From contig JAEUTO010000014.1 in NCBI GenBank assembly GCA_016787785.1, forward strand, positions 124,001-188,000: 64,000 nt of DNA, read 5' to 3'. This document shows, one piece after another, positions 37,178 to 63,650 of the stretch (positions are counted from its first letter, which is position 1; each line of letters opens with the position of its first letter). Under the pieces are notes generated by a model. It was not told where the DNA came from and did no database searches. It worked only from the letters and a program-made list of their open reading frames with translations. The DNA is from Bacteroidia bacterium. GTDB taxonomy: Bacteria; Bacteroidota; Bacteroidia; B-17B0; Aurantibacillaceae. A program made the position numbers and the translations under genes.

Positions 37178-38332
37178 TTATAACTGTTGGTTGGCCAAAA
37201 GCCTTGCTTCCTTGTCGCAGTCAATATATTGCTGGTAGTCAGGGTTTTTAATGTACTGGCATTTTTCCATAGTATTACCAACAACATCACTCATTTGCAA
37301 AAAGCCTATTTTATCTTCTAAAAAGGCCTGCACAGCTACCTCGTTGGCCGCATTTAATACACAAGGCATATTGCCACCTTTTTCCATCGCACTGAAGGCT
37401 AATTTAAGGTTTGTAAATGTATCCAGGTCAGGCTTCTCAAAGGTTAATTGGGGGTAATTTAAAAAATCAAACCGCGGGAATTTATTTTTTATCCTATTCG
37501 GAAAACCGATAGCATATTGTATTGGTAATTTCATATCCGGCAAACCCATTTGAGCTTTCATACTACCATCTTCAAACTGAACGATACTATGTATAATACT
37601 TTGCGGATGAACGATCACATCAATTTTTGAAGGCTCCAGATTAAACAACCATTTTGCTTCTATTACCTCCAAGCCTTTATTCATAAGGCTTGCAGAATCT
37701 ATGGTGATCTTCGCGCCCATGGTCCAGTTGGGGTGTTTTAATGCCTGCGCCTTTGTAACTTGTATAAGATCTTTACGTGTTTTGCCTCTAAAAGGGCCCC
37801 CACTGGCGGTTAAATAGATCTTCTCGATCTTATTTTCCCATTCGCCTGCAAGACATTGAAAAATGGCAGAGTGTTCACTATCTACAGGATAAATATTTAC
37901 GGCATTCTCCAAAGCCAGTCGGGTAACCAGTTCGCCGGCAACAACCAATGTTTCTTTATTGGCAAGCGCAATTTGTTTTTTGTGCTTAATGGCATTAATG
38001 GTAGAGGCAAGGCCCGCATAACCAACAACAGCAGCCAATACAAGATCGATGGTCTCCATTTCAACAATTTGTTCAACGGCTTTTGCGCCGGCAAATACTT
38101 TAATATCTGATGCGCTTAAGGCTTCCTTTACCTGTTTGTATTTTGTTTCGTCGGCAATTACAACAGCGTTTGGATTAAATTCTAAAGCCTGCTTAATTAA
38201 AAGGTCGGCATTGCTATTAGCAACTAAAACCTCTGCAACAAAATGGTCAGGGTTCTCTTTTATAACTTCCAGGGCTTGTGTACCAATACTTCCGGTGCTA
38301 CCAATAATAGCTATGTTCTTCTTTTTTTCCAA
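37178..38332 (-). CDS. dxr: 1-deoxy-D-xylulose 5-phosphate reductoisomerase
   Basis: Converts DXP to MEP with NADPH; second step of the non-mevalonate isoprenoid pathway. NADPH motif IAIIGSTGSIGTQALEVI at the N-terminus, metal/substrate residues in YPVDSEHSAIFQCL, TASGGPFRG, SLMNKGLEVIEA and HPQSIIHS. I choose the TTG at 38332 (EKKKNIAIIG), giving 384 residues, the usual length; the frame is open to another TTG at 38353, which adds LIIALEL. No ATG is available. Confidence 0.93.
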   Translation of the reverse strand: MEKKKNIAIIGSTGSIGTQALEVIKENPDHFVAEVLVANSNADLLIKQALEFNPNAVVIADETKYKQVKEALSASDIKVFAGAKAVEQIVEMETIDLVLAAVVGYAGLASTINAIKHKKQIALANKETLVVAGELVTRLALENAVNIYPVDSEHSAIFQCLAGEWENKIEKIYLTASGGPFRGKTRKDLIQVTKAQALKHPNWTMGAKITIDSASLMNKGLEVIEAKWLFNLEPSKIDVIVHPQSIIHSIVQFEDGSMKAQMGLPDMKLPIQYAIGFPNRIKNKFPRFDFLNYPQLTFEKPDLDTFTNLKLAFSAMEKGGNMPCVLNAANEVAVQAFLEDKIGFLQMSDVVGNTMEKCQYIKNPDYQQYIDCDKEARLLANQQL

Positions 38333-38414
38333 TTCAAGTGCAATAATCAACAAAATTTTTTAGCTGTTAAAACTATTTTTTGCACAATGAATAATCAATT
38401 GTAAATTTGGCCTG

Positions 38415-38594
38415 TCTTAAGGGGTGCTTTTCATGATTTAAGATTGATGATATAAGATTTAAGATTGAATAATAAACAATCTAAAATCTGACTTCTAAAT
38501 TCATAAATCAGGAAGGCTGAGATTAAACCCGTTAACAGTTTACGCCAAACGTTGCTGTTAAACACCTGAACAGGATAATGCCTGCGGAGGGAAA
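38415..38594 (+). ncRNA. TPP (THI-box) riboswitch with long P3 arm
   Basis: The conserved thi-box parts occur in order: GGGGTGC (38421-38427), GGCTGAGAT (38515-38523), ACCCG (38528-38531 region), ACCTGAACAGGATAATG (38564-38580) and CCTGCGGAGGGAA (38581-38593). A side stem AACAG/CTGTT lies between ACCCG and ACCTGA. P3, normally a short arm, is about 87 nt here and contains its own inverted repeat (AGATTTAAGATTG with CAATCTAAAATCT). Senses thiamin pyrophosphate and very probably controls the receptor gene 59 bases downstream. Confidence 0.93.
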
Positions 38595-38652
38595 ACAATT
38601 AAAATAACACATGCCCCACGTGTTGTTATGTTTAATTAAAAAAAATAAAAAA

Positions 38653-41100
38653 ATGAACAAAAAGTTATTGGCAAAGACCTTCTTTGCAACCGCGTTCTTT
38701 AGCCTGGCTAAAGTAAGCGCGCAACACAGTATTTCGGGCACTGTTAAGACCGATAAAGGCGAAACCGTGCCATTTGCAGTAGTTGGGTTAAAGAACACAC
38801 AGCTTTCTGCCACAACCAATTCAGAAGGCGTTTTTAAATTCAAGAACGTAAAAGATGAAACTTACATTCTTATTACAAGATGTTTAGGCTTTCGAGAGCG
38901 TATTGATACAGTAATTGTTAGTGCTGACGTAGTTGTTGATCCTCAACTGACGCAATCAAACAAACAATTGGATGAAGTGGTTGTAAATGCTACACGCGTT
39001 GACAAAAATAATGGCATGGCTTTTAGCAATATTGATGCAGAAGCGTTGAAAAAACAAAACCTTGGGCAGGATGCTCCATACATGTTGAATCAGTTGCCAA
39101 GCGTGGTTGTTAACTCTGATGCCGGTGCCGGTGTAGGTTACACAGGAATTAGAATAAGAGGTTCGGATGGTACGCGCATAAACGTAACTATTAACGGCGT
39201 ACCGGTTAACGATGCAGAATCGCAGGGAACTTTTTTTGTGAACATGCCCGACTTTGTTTCTAGCACAAACAACATTCAGGTGCAACGTGGAGTAGGGGCT
39301 TCAAGTAATGGAGCCGGAGCTTTTGGCGCAAGTATTAATTTTCAAACAAACGAGTTAAAAGATAAGCCCTATGCTAATGTAATTTCAACAGCGGGTTCAT
39401 TTGATACTTATAGAAATACTTTAGCTGCCGGTACTGGGTTATTGAATGATAAATTTACATTGGATGCAAGAGCCTCAAGCATTACAAGTAATGGATACAT
39501 CGATCGCGCAAGATCAAATCTACAATCCTATTATTTAGCCGGAGGCTATTACGGTAAAAAAACAGTTATAAAATTAATTAATTTTTTAGGGCAGGAAAAA
39601 ACGTACCAGGCCTGGTATTATGTGCCGGAAGATTCTATAAAAAAAGGGAACAGAACCTATAATCCCGCTGGAGAATATTATGATGCTAATGGAAAGGTAC
39701 ATTATTATAAGAATGAGACCGATAATTACAAACAAAATAATTTCCAGTTGCATTTTATACATCAGGTAAATTCAAGAACTAGTTTTAATATAACTGGTCA
39801 TTACACAAAAGGAAAAGGCTATTACGAACAATATAAACAAAGCCAAAGCTTTGGATCTTACCACATGGAAGAGCCTATTTTGGCTTTAAATGATTCAACT
39901 AATTTAACCATCACATCAACTGATCTTATTCGTCGTTTATGGTTAGACAATGATTTTGCTGGTGGTATCTTTAATTTTAACTATACACCTAATTCGCAAT
40001 TAGCATTTACTATTGGCGGTGGCTATAACTCTTACTTTGGAAGACATTTTGGACGAGTGATGTGGGCACAATATGCTTCTAATTCGGAGATCGATCATCA
40101 ATACTATTTTCAAACTGCAAATAAGAACGACGGTAATATTTACTTTAAAACAAATTATAAACCGGTATCAAATTTTAATGTTTTTGTTGATCTGCAGGTT
40201 AGAAATGTGGATCATCGCTTTTTAGGCTTCGTTGATTCGTTAGCGACAGAAACTAAATTACAAAACCAGACCTATTCTTTCTTTAATCCAAAACTTGGTT
40301 TAAGTTATGATATAAACACACATTTAAATATGTACGCTTCTTTTGCTATTGCAAATAAAGAACCTAACCGAAACGATTTTGTGCAGAGTGCACCAAATAG
40401 TCGCCCGAAGCCGGAGCAATTAATGGATATAGAAGCGGGTGCAAAATACACGGTAAAGAATTTTTATTTTGCAGCCAATATTTATGATATGGAGTATAAG
40501 GACCAATTGGTTTTAAATGGCAAGGTAAATAACGTTGGGGCCTATAACCGCGTTAATGTAGCGAGTAGCTATAGGAGAGGAATAGAGATTGAAGCTAATG
40601 CCAACATTGGCAAATATTTTGCAATTGGTGGAAATGTAACTATATCGCAAAATAAAATAAATAATTTTGTTGATTATACCGATAGCAGCGATGCTGCATA
40701 CACAGTTTTTACCCAGTACAAAAAAGAATATAAGAATACTGATATTTCTTTTTCACCAAACGAAATCTCATCTATCTTTTTTGTTATTAAGCCTGTAAAA
40801 AACCTTGAGATCACTTTTATGAATAAATATGTTGGTCGCCAGTTCCTTGATAATACAACTAATATTAAGCGCAGTATTGCACCCTATTATGTAACCGATG
40901 CGCGATTGAACTATACCATTAAAACAAAATTGATACCTGAAATTGGAATACTGTTTGCGGTATATAATGTGTTTAGCTCAAAGTATGAAACAAATGGATA
41001 TACGTATAGCTATTATACAGATGCAGACCTTAATACGTTTAATTATAAGGCGCCTGCAGCACCAATACATTTTTTGGGTGGGATCAGTTTAAAGTTTTAA
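38653..41100 (+). CDS. TPP-regulated TonB-dependent receptor (thiamin-related uptake)
   Basis: 815 residues from ATG 38653, chosen for its signal peptide MNKKLLAKTFFATAFFSLAKVSAQ; the in-frame ATG at 38611 lies in a leader hairpin. Domains: carboxypeptidase-regulatory-like (25-100, ISGTVKTDKGETVPFAVVGL), plug (about 120-230, GYTGIRIRGSDGTRINVTINGVPV), then barrel ending GGISLKF. The TPP riboswitch in front implies import of thiamin or a precursor across the outer membrane, as known for omr1-type receptors of Bacteroidota. No inner-membrane thiamin transporter (PnuT/TenA type) follows; a terminator comes next. Confidence 0.9.
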   Translation: MNKKLLAKTFFATAFFSLAKVSAQHSISGTVKTDKGETVPFAVVGLKNTQLSATTNSEGVFKFKNVKDETYILITRCLGFRERIDTVIVSADVVVDPQLTQSNKQLDEVVVNATRVDKNNGMAFSNIDAEALKKQNLGQDAPYMLNQLPSVVVNSDAGAGVGYTGIRIRGSDGTRINVTINGVPVNDAESQGTFFVNMPDFVSSTNNIQVQRGVGASSNGAGAFGASINFQTNELKDKPYANVISTAGSFDTYRNTLAAGTGLLNDKFTLDARASSITSNGYIDRARSNLQSYYLAGGYYGKKTVIKLINFLGQEKTYQAWYYVPEDSIKKGNRTYNPAGEYYDANGKVHYYKNETDNYKQNNFQLHFIHQVNSRTSFNITGHYTKGKGYYEQYKQSQSFGSYHMEEPILALNDSTNLTITSTDLIRRLWLDNDFAGGIFNFNYTPNSQLAFTIGGGYNSYFGRHFGRVMWAQYASNSEIDHQYYFQTANKNDGNIYFKTNYKPVSNFNVFVDLQVRNVDHRFLGFVDSLATETKLQNQTYSFFNPKLGLSYDINTHLNMYASFAIANKEPNRNDFVQSAPNSRPKPEQLMDIEAGAKYTVKNFYFAANIYDMEYKDQLVLNGKVNNVGAYNRVNVASSYRRGIEIEANANIGKYFAIGGNVTISQNKINNFVDYTDSSDAAYTVFTQYKKEYKNTDISFSPNEISSIFFVIKPVKNLEITFMNKYVGRQFLDNTTNIKRSIAPYYVTDARLNYTIKTKLIPEIGILFAVYNVFSSKYETNGYTYSYYTDADLNTFNYKAPAAPIHFLGGISLKF

Positions 41101-62231: not shown

Positions 62232-62345
62232 AGTGGTTTTGATAACAATTTGAAAGTACAAATAATTTTTGAGTGAATAATTTTAATTTTATAAACATGA
62301 TGCGCAGAATAATGTTACTGATTTAAGATATATGATTAAGGACTA

Positions 62346-63650
62346 ATGATAAAAATTATGATCACTAAATGTATTCTGTATTGCGTCTTCTGTCTTGCGT
62401 CTTTTATCTTTTTAGCGCAAACTCCGGTTCAGCGCTGCAAATACCGCTTTGATAATTATCTAAATTTTAAAGGTTCTTTAAATAACCGCGTCGAATTTCA
62501 AAAAGAGGTAATTTTTATTTTAGATAATAAAGGCAAAAAGATCTTCGCCTTTAATGAAAATGAAATTGACGTGGTTGCCAAATATTTTATAAATAACACA
62601 TTTGTAGCGCAGGAAAAATTTATAAAATTTAAGGGAACAAAAAGATTCTCTTCAACACAAAGAGACAGTATCTCTAAAAAGATCGTTGATAAAAGGATCA
62701 TTGCAAAAAAAGATAATGCCCTGCCGCTTAGCGGTTACCGCATTGCCATTGACCCCGGACATACGGGCACTAATTTGACCGATGCGCAAATAGAACAAAA
62801 ATTCCTGTATTTTGTGCAAGATAGTATCAATCATCCTTTGGATACAATTAAATTGTTTGAAAGCGTACTTACATTTAATACCGCACAGTTAGCACAAAAA
62901 ATGCTGGAAGAGCAGGGCGCAAAGGTTTTAATGACACGTTCGCAAAGTAATTTTAATTCGTTTAACCTCACTTACACGCAATGGATAGAAAAGCATAAAA
63001 AGAGAGTTTTGGATAGCCTGCAAAGAAAGAAAGTGCATACCAAAGCACAGCATAATAAGTTGATGAAAATGAGCGACAGAGATCTTTTCTGGGAATTTTT
63101 TAGGGATTTTGATCTGAACCATCGTGCAAAACTGATGAATGATTTTGATCCGCATGCCAGTTTGATCATTCATTACAATGTAGACGAAAAGAACGAACCC
63201 TGGAAACAAACCAGTAACCGCAATTTTACCATGGCCTTTATTGGAGGGGCTTTTACGAGCGATAATATTGATAAACCCGAGAACATGATACATTTTTTGC
63301 GCTTGTTATTGACAGATGAATTAAACCAATCAGAAAAATTGGCTTCTTTAACTGTAAGTAATTTTAACAAGAATCTTAATATTCCAATCGCTTCGCAATT
63401 TGACGCCAATTATTTGAAGGATAATTGTTTGTTTACAGCAAGCCCAGGCGTGTTCTCAAGAAACTTAAATCTGTGCCGTTTAATTAATTCGCCGCTGGTA
63501 TATGGTGAAAGCCTTTACCAGGACAATGAAAAAGAGTGTAAGGAGCTGATGAAGATGGAAAGCAATTATAAAGGCATTAAAACAAACGAACGTGTATTGA
63601 AAGTGGCAAAAAGTTATTACGATGCAGTTTTTAAGTTTTTAAAAAACTAG
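62346..63650 (+). CDS. N-acetylmuramoyl-L-alanine amidase (amidase_3-like)
   Basis: 434 residues. A Cys-rich signal peptide (ITKCILYCVFCLASFIFLAQ), a pro/N-terminal region (about 25-125) and an amidase_3-like domain: zinc-site motif AIDPGHTGTN (about 134-143), LMTRSQSNF, ASLIIHYNVDE, and a Glu in VYGESLYQDN. It cleaves the lactyl-peptide bond of peptidoglycan in the periplasm. ATGs at 62346 and 62358. The signal-peptide region overlaps repeat-like DNA. The response-regulator gene follows 17 bases downstream. Confidence 0.82.
   Translation: MIKIMITKCILYCVFCLASFIFLAQTPVQRCKYRFDNYLNFKGSLNNRVEFQKEVIFILDNKGKKIFAFNENEIDVVAKYFINNTFVAQEKFIKFKGTKRFSSTQRDSISKKIVDKRIIAKKDNALPLSGYRIAIDPGHTGTNLTDAQIEQKFLYFVQDSINHPLDTIKLFESVLTFNTAQLAQKMLEEQGAKVLMTRSQSNFNSFNLTYTQWIEKHKKRVLDSLQRKKVHTKAQHNKLMKMSDRDLFWEFFRDFDLNHRAKLMNDFDPHASLIIHYNVDEKNEPWKQTSNRNFTMAFIGGAFTSDNIDKPENMIHFLRLLLTDELNQSEKLASLTVSNFNKNLNIPIASQFDANYLKDNCLFTASPGVFSRNLNLCRLINSPLVYGESLYQDNEKECKELMKMESNYKGIKTNERVLKVAKSYYDAVFKFLKN
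62381..62408 (+). repeat. Tandem TTGCGTCTT repeat inside the amidase signal peptide
   Basis: Two 14-mers, TTGCGTCTTCTGTC (62381-62394) and TTGCGTCTTTTATC (62395-62408). The second, reversed, is nearly the GATAAAAGACTCAAGACGC stretch at 12197 (intergenic, after recQ). Confidence 0.5.

Follow-up and report, generated by a model that had tools for sequence, protein, structure and literature searches.

P3 of TPP riboswitches is already known as a variable and growing arm in fungi (PMC11683625) as well as in Klebsiella, Serratia and plants (PMC12632268). In the fungal switches the arm is expandable, with a mean length of about 150 nt and a maximum of 172 nt, and its length, typically beyond 60 nt, hampers detection with Rfam (PMC11683625). 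In bacteria, a 24-nt P3 extension from Klebsiella has been grafted into the E. coli thiC switch, which was still responsive to pyrithiamine (PMC12632268). The mode of action of TPP switches in the Bacteroidetes has been called uncertain (PMC5613172). In most genomes the long simple repeats are most often heptanucleotides, for which DNA polymerase slippage over about 7 nt has been proposed as a cause, and arrays of TAACTGA, mostly intergenic, occur in some Bacteroidetes (PMC4679880, reporting Mrazek et al. 2007). All comparisons with these four sources refer to the excerpts of them that were available.

Here, we analysed a window of 64,000 nucleotides from a Bacteroidia genome, in which a TPP riboswitch leader is located between the minus-strand gene for DXP reductoisomerase (37178-38353) and an 829-aa ORF (38611-41100). 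Judged by its sequence and context the leader is a TPP riboswitch, with ligand binding predicted. The ORF, whose likely start is at 38653, encodes a TonB-dependent receptor (38653-41100, plus strand; Pfam TonB_dep_Rec_b-barrel 77.8 bits, Plug 43.4 bits), and a receptor of this kind 3' of the leader agrees with the thiamin gene context of RF00059. It is likely a thiamine receptor of the OMthi type, if its substrate can be read from the riboswitch.

Compared with RF00059 (THI element), the leader has the same core motifs in the same order and differs in an 87-nt P3 and in an extra 30-nt hairpin in J2/4. The TonB-dependent outer-membrane receptor context is shared with OMthi of Bacteroides thetaiotaomicron (PMC5613172). 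As in the fungal long-P3 switches (PMC11683625), P3 is the expandable arm; unlike them, the present switch is bacterial, its arm is a palindrome of 7-nt repeats that appears to be exchanged apart from its flanks, and a J2/4 hairpin outweighs P3 in the failure of Rfam. An extended bacterial P3 is also common to the thiC riboswitches of Klebsiella and Serratia, although the grafted extension there was 24 nt and the excerpt makes no mention of arm replacement (PMC12632268). The 7-nt unit is shared with the heptanucleotide repeats and TAACTGA arrays, whereas the arm has degenerate units, a variable word and inverted repeats inside a structured RNA (PMC4679880). A literature search, judged by titles and the beginnings of abstracts, returned nothing on heptad arms in TPP P3 or on arm exchange. 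What is new here is the heptad fold-back build, the replacement of the arm alone and the recurrence of such arms in tonB-, pnu- and thiS-type leaders, the pnu- and thiS-type labels in relatives having been assigned by eye from sequence.

Our main reading, to which we give a probability of about 0.7, is that a palindromic heptad arm is tolerated in P3 of the TPP riboswitch, and that it comes, goes and is exchanged as one unit while the ligand core is preserved. The riboswitch would control a TonB-dependent, probably thiamine, receptor, and P3, which is expected to point away from the ligand pocket, would owe its length to palindromic 7-nt-repeat sequence, similar stretches of which may be scattered through the intergenic DNA of the genome. 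The core (P2, CTGAGA and P4/P5) could still bind TPP because the arm would fold on itself as an extension of P3. Gain, loss and replacement as a unit would account for different heptad words at the same place in close relatives and for near-identical arms in less close relatives, while the flanking leader is largely tree-like. The arm itself may be neutral, and it may have originated through heptanucleotide slippage and fold-back.

The motif GGGGTGC (38421-38427, plus strand, read directly), which by the TPP consensus we take to be the 5' side of the THI box (the 5' strand of P2 and the start of P3), is separated from GGCTGAGAT (38515-38523, plus strand, read directly; the 3' side of P3 and the conserved CTGAGA) by exactly 87 nt (38428-38514, plus strand). 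An earlier note on this DNA had recognised the long P3 stem-loop and placed it at 38427-38515, one base off at each end. The arm is an imperfect inverted repeat with 38 nt per side (38430-38467 against 38477-38514, 74% complementary), a 9-nt loop and a period of 7; an internal inverted repeat had been described before, but the one present is larger. In the minimum-energy fold the arm extends P3, and both of the pairings named in the earlier note are found there. When folded alone, the segment 38424-38516 has an energy of -21.9 kcal/mol (z -3.46), and none of 200 shuffles was as stable.

Tandem Repeats Finder reported a GATTTAA heptad array in the left half of the arm (38435-38466, plus strand; period 7, 4.6 copies, 76% matches). 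Near-exact tandem copies are absent from the arm, as 76% matches over 4.6 copies indicate, and its second half is the reverse complement. The 7-nt tandem period of heptanucleotide simple repeats is present, and identity at lag 7 is 0.65 (z 6.2); no dinucleotide shuffle out of 1,000 reached this value. The remaining lags between 2 and 13 give 0.24-0.35, with harmonics of 0.58 at lag 14 and 0.52 at lag 21. On a scale of 80-nt windows, the arm is the strongest lag-7 stretch of the whole 64,000 nucleotides, and lag 7 gives the highest maximum among lags 4-12. Individual words were far less distinctive: the pattern AGATTTAAGATTGA has 5 matches in the window against 1.78 expected (equalled in 3 of 100 shuffles, a modest enrichment), and one heptad word searched genome-wide has 27 matches against 17 for its reversed control, which is weak evidence. 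The signal of the arm is carried by the 7-nt period and not by a word. This period, like the J2/4 hairpin, had been overlooked before.

The core motifs occur in the order GGGGTGC, CTGAGA and ACCTGA...GGATAATGCC...GGAGGGA, and most positions of the P4/P5 part, the pyrophosphate-side core (ACCTGAACAGGATAATGCCTGCGGAGGGA; 38564-38592, plus strand), show little or no variation across 33 leaders. The extra J2/4 hairpin (TTAACAG ... CTGTTAA; 38532-38561, plus strand), which covaries in relatives and is outside the Rfam consensus, lies between the CCC of P2 and ACCTGA. An Rfam search of the window gave no TPP match at gathering; a local RF00059 scan by E-value gave no full-length match but a partial one from 38532 with 32.2 bits against a gathering score of 54.3, and the rest of the genome yielded only two still weaker RF00059 matches (E 1.7 and 6.6). 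The earlier description of the THI-box core as intact is thus borne out by motif and not by Rfam score. A family covariance model, R1, was built from 29 family leaders (28 distinct) with the closest group of the window held out, and it matched 38517-38594 on the plus strand with 90.4 bits (E 2.6e-21; runner-up in the window E 1.7); as the model represents TPP-type leaders from that family and is limited to the region 3' of P3, the match is a measure of family membership rather than of ligand. In the 29-leader alignment 96.9% of cells form standard pairs and both sides change in 9 of 16 pairs, 8 of which are in the J2/4 hairpin. The covariation score was 0.476 against 0.123 for shuffles and was equalled in none of 500, the structure being predicted from the same alignment.

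At gathering, Rfam found none of 16 family receptor loci, including L064, L069 and L071 with their short P3 (loops of 17-22 nt), compared with three of four outgroup loci, L096 being missed. It passed four of five leaders that combine an arm of at least 77 nt with an ordinary J2/4 (L254, L258, L279 and L336; 56.3-60.8 bits), and the fifth, L320, which has a divergent P4, fell below the cut-off. The long P3 was therefore rejected as the main reason for the failure. Since short-P3 leaders with the hairpin fail and long-P3 leaders with an ordinary J2/4 mostly pass, the low score of the leader comes mainly from the extra J2/4 hairpin, with the long P3 adding to it. The addition can be seen in the pnu type, where long-arm L254 and L258 score 56.3 bits against 64.0 for short-P3 L266, and in the thiS type, where long-arm L279 scores 60.8 against 76.1 for short-P3 L278; as the four long-arm leaders pass at some cost in bits, a long P3 is compatible with a TPP call. 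The earlier note had taken a low covariance score as evidence against a TPP aptamer with a long arm. The RF00059 score is indeed low, but this is largely due to the J2/4 hairpin and does not tell against the reading, and the held-out model scored the leader highly. Thiamin regulons in these bacteria are probably under-annotated, because the Rfam cut-off misses all 16 family receptor loci, mainly through this hairpin.

The J2/4 hairpin was rejected as a private feature of the family, given that 61 of the 77 leaders parsed from elsewhere in the class have a J2/4 longer than 20 nt, a share that is inflated by the leaders having been picked with a model that contains the hairpin; a long J2/4 appears to occur widely in the class. 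Two TPP leaders of family f41, L415 and L451 (genomes G233 and G363), have a J2/4 of 92 and 103 nt, a second site of growth. The predicted probability of the inner pairs of the hairpin in the window depends on the segment folded: 0.08 for 38405-38600, 0.24 for 38380-38660 and 0.99 for the leader from 38416. In the predicted ensemble the 5' flank at 38405-38415 can pair with the hairpin region and displace the hairpin, and this competition may reflect an alternative conformer or a limit of prediction.

The distribution of long arms was surveyed in 79 orthologous receptor loci and the window (L123 was left off the tree, its protein start being broken). P3 arms of 69-90 nt were found in 14 leaders, all within one clade of 18, in which the remaining P3 are of 17-22 nt in three and 8 nt in one; the other 62 leaders, outside this clade, have 11-14 nt. 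The lag-7 signal reached p <=0.001 in 9 of 13 long-armed receptor relatives, the others being L066 (0.013), L067 (0.107), L070 (0.458) and L065 (0.978). In the family of the window the 3' part of the leader was matched in 55 of 87 genomes.

A pooled set comprised 99 distinct parsed leaders, 49 with a J2/4 insert (all but L310 from the family of the window) and 50 without. The parser requires a standard P4/P5 and divergent leaders are missed. L285 was without a core found, L444 and L449 were unparsed, L244, whose arm contains CTGAGAT, was counted with its true arm as L067, and the arm of L065, 69 nt in the receptor survey, was entered as 79 nt. Arms of at least 55 nt make up 34 of the 99, and in 25 of these 34, which are not independent and include near-copies such as L254/L258 and L262/L264, lag-7 z is at least 3, with many different words. 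The remaining nine lie below z 3, seven of them below 1.5, so that P3 can also become long without heptads. Words read by eye include GATTTAA, AATTTAA/AATTCAA, GTTTAAA/GTTCAAA, GTTTCTG, GTTTTTA, TTATGAG and others. Most arms that are unrelated in sequence are built alike, with heptads on one side and the reverse complement of these on the other. The earlier note had supposed that a relative with an equally long but unrelated P3 would reduce the arm to an ordinary variable one; such relatives exist, and as their arms mostly share the heptad fold-back build they do not have this effect.

Long and short P3 occur in each of the tonB-, pnu- and thiS-type leaders, also within one genus. In genus g7, the pnu-type leader of G056 and G057 has an 80-nt heptad arm and the receptor leader a 15-nt P3, and in G058 the pnu-type leader has a P3 of 13 nt and the receptor leader one of 79 nt; in genus g9 the thiS-type leader has 84 nt in G070 and 13 nt in G067. 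Among the 77 leaders parsed from outside the family, which were selected largely by rank in model score and are not a random sample, P3 measures 9-93 nt, with at least 55 nt in seven (six in f21, one in f41) whose lag-7 z ranges from -1.6 to 4.6, one being above 3. Further long arms outside the family are those of G168 (f39; z 5.0) and G396 (f54; read by eye). A class-wide pattern scan gave 28 places in 27 of 395 genomes, against 4 places for the reversed control; nine places were taken as TPP leaders (six in the family, three outside it in G330, G396 and G168) and the rest as chance. When the parser was applied to the scan loci except L337, only G330 and G168 yielded a full TPP core among the places outside the family, and the leader of G396 was missed. 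Long P3 as a private feature of the family was rejected on the examples in f21 (six loci), f39, f41 and f54.

Arms and flanks were compared in the six nearest genomes, the flanks being 70 nt before and 125 nt after the arm. The flanks largely follow the gene tree and the arms do not. The sisters L062 and L063 share 89% protein identity (fourfold sites 52%) and arms only 64% alike, whereas the arms of L061 and L063 are 93% identical (protein 77%, fourfold coding sites 42%) and those of L062 and L073 89% identical (protein 80%, fourfold 47%), fourfold sites being near saturation in all pairs (0.40-0.65). The window shares 92% protein and 60% arm identity with L073, and 91% and 71% with L116. Flank identity is higher for the sisters L062/L063 than for L061/L063, both 5' (0.96 against 0.86) and 3' (0.98 against 0.95), with a tree-discordant 3' flank in the window, which is nearer to L061 (0.97) than to L073 (0.95). 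For scale, base-shuffled arms align at 52% (sd 4, maximum 61), and 61 of 66 pairs among 12 long arms (L065 and L070 left out) are 47-68% alike. Replacement of the arm alone accounts best for the discordance, and we infer that the swap proceeded by recombination anchored in the conserved aptamer.

The same comparison bears on the view that this is an ordinary variable arm, in which P3 drifts and the long A+T-rich arms go back to a single origin, having since diverged through point mutations and small indels. Diversity of P3 length and sequence is documented in fungi, plants, Klebsiella and Serratia in the excerpts cited above, the long P3 among receptor orthologues are confined to one clade (14 long, three intermediate and one short of 18), and several pairs, L262/L264 and L259/L267 among them, look like simple descent. 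Drift from a single origin is nevertheless unlikely, since arm similarity contradicts the gene tree with which the flanks largely agree, the 7-nt period persists across different words, and long arms are also found in pnu- and thiS-type leaders and in families f21, f39 and f54.

A bolder extension of arm replacement, which we regard as tentative and somewhat short of an even chance, is that fold-back heptads have landed repeatedly in P3 of TPP riboswitches across several Bacteroidota families, and that lineages exchange these arms as cassettes through short-tract recombination, with the invariant aptamer on either side as its anchor. If this is true, the riboswitch would be an RNA sensor with a modular, swappable arm.

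In the predicted ensembles the arm keeps largely to itself. In the window 1.8% of its pairing goes to the core and 98% to itself; over 34 leaders the median share going to the core is 1.9%, with more than 10% in five and a maximum of 22.5%. The overlap of core pairing with and without the arm has a median of 0.88, being 0.84 in the window and lowest in L116 (0.54). Downstream of the core, and before the start codon, a hairpin with CCCC in its loop (38603-38627, plus strand) is a candidate expression platform, with a conserved loop and a variable stem, and similar hairpins are found in Spirosoma and Pontibacter leaders. Among leaders with a J2/4 insert, 41 of 49 have such a hairpin with a stem score of at least 5 (base-shuffled controls 4%); among those without the insert, the figure is 18 of 50 (controls 6%). 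We can only guess at a platform model, in which, without TPP, the CCCC loop might base-pair with the P2 GGGG.

It is also conceivable that the arm is a functional add-on, such as a site for a protein (e.g. of the cold-shock type), a control of RNase or termination, or an anchor of the aptamer, with selection for a long 7-periodic stem and not for its sequence. The fold and period do recur as the sequence changes, and the P3 of the 49 leaders with a J2/4 insert fall into roughly discrete length classes (15 of 12-24 nt, four of 42-51 nt and 30 of 63-93 nt); in addition, CspB can bind heptamer repeats according to one literature passage, and in the Arabidopsis switch the distal part of P3 is described as a possible anchor for the aptamer (PMC12632268). 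A selected function is, however, quite unlikely in view of the 15-24 nt P3 that suffices in the close relatives L064, L069, L071, G056 and G057, the similar repeats scattered elsewhere in the genome of the window, and the lack of a shared arm motif evident to the eye.

Sequences related to the arms were also found at other places in several genomes. Relatives of the window, L073 and L116 arms elsewhere in the genomes searched are 71-85% alike where the match is at least 50 nt, including an L073-type copy in G002 (79% over 83 nt, E 1e-12). With 40 of 66-69 candidates scored at E <=0.01, a second copy of the L063 arm was absent from its own genome, G003, and from the L061 genome, G001, and with 40 of 66-70 first-look candidates scored at the same threshold no other copy of the L073 arm was found in G003. 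Among the candidates scored, matches of about 90% over 80 nt occur only from arm to arm, and a dispersed pool is not seen where it was expected for the L063 arm.

Lag-7 stretches were counted against other lags. In the genome of the window, 224 kb not chosen for matches contain six non-ORF stretches above the threshold at lag 7, the arm being one of them, whereas seven other lags give 0-2 each, and 240 kb chosen around matches contain 16 against 0-1. Elsewhere the counts are 3 against 0-1 in G008, 2 against 0-1 in G009, 3 against up to 3 in G396, 0 against 0-1 in G168 and 1 against 0 in a mixed set of others; the genome-wide excess is clear in the genome of the window and weak elsewhere. In the 79 orthologue loci, the 13 with long arms (87 kb) have no lag-7 stretch apart from P3 itself, and the remaining 66 have three against four at lag 8, which lends no support to a dispersed class. 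The earlier view of the arm as a small dispersed palindrome inserted into P3 can be kept as regards a dispersed, palindromic kind of sequence, but many 7-nt words are involved and not one palindrome family. The TTAAGAT-type words that had been pointed out near 62321 are part of another lag-7 stretch in the window (62315-62412, z 5.5), which has GATTTAAGATATATGATTAAGGA on one side and GTCTTCTGTCTTGCGTCTTTTATC on the other, two different heptad words. A same-genus genome carries a 324-nt array of CTTGNNT-type heptads with lag-7 identity of up to 0.77 (L367, G009:C1, 778-1101).

Dispersed related copies in some genomes, together with the palindromic body and the occurrence of long and short P3 in one genus, speak for insertion into P3 of a transposase-driven mobile element, such as REP or MITE sequences. 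Such an origin is very improbable, however: the arms have no common sequence (61 of 66 pairs only 47-68% alike) and one word family at a time has dispersed relatives, a 7-nt period is not expected of REP or MITE elements, and no target duplication was seen by eye in the few long/short pairs read. An assembly or binning artefact behind the arm discordance, to which the metagenome-assembled relatives, the names of L061 and L063 from one series (MGR_bin) and the coverage of 1.14 in the L063 contig title might point, is likewise very improbable, as 6 of 80 sites differ between the arms of L061 and L063, which are therefore not copied reads, the second discordant pair, L062/L073, bears names of two different series, and the window arm is inside a contig of 427,709 bases.

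The natural series of about 30 long arms at one point of the aptamer, with long and short P3 in one genus, indicates where a riboswitch tolerates growth and provides ready-made constructs. The suggestion that P3 is such a place was made in the earlier note and is supported here, although tolerance was already known from fungi, plants, Klebsiella and Serratia. The arms are also a case of intergenic-type 7-nt repeats entering a structured RNA. Elsewhere in the window, the Rfam DUF805 RNA motif was found on the minus strand at 2886-2950 (68.7 bits), just upstream of a 93-aa ORF (2590-2871) with a lipoprotein-like start.
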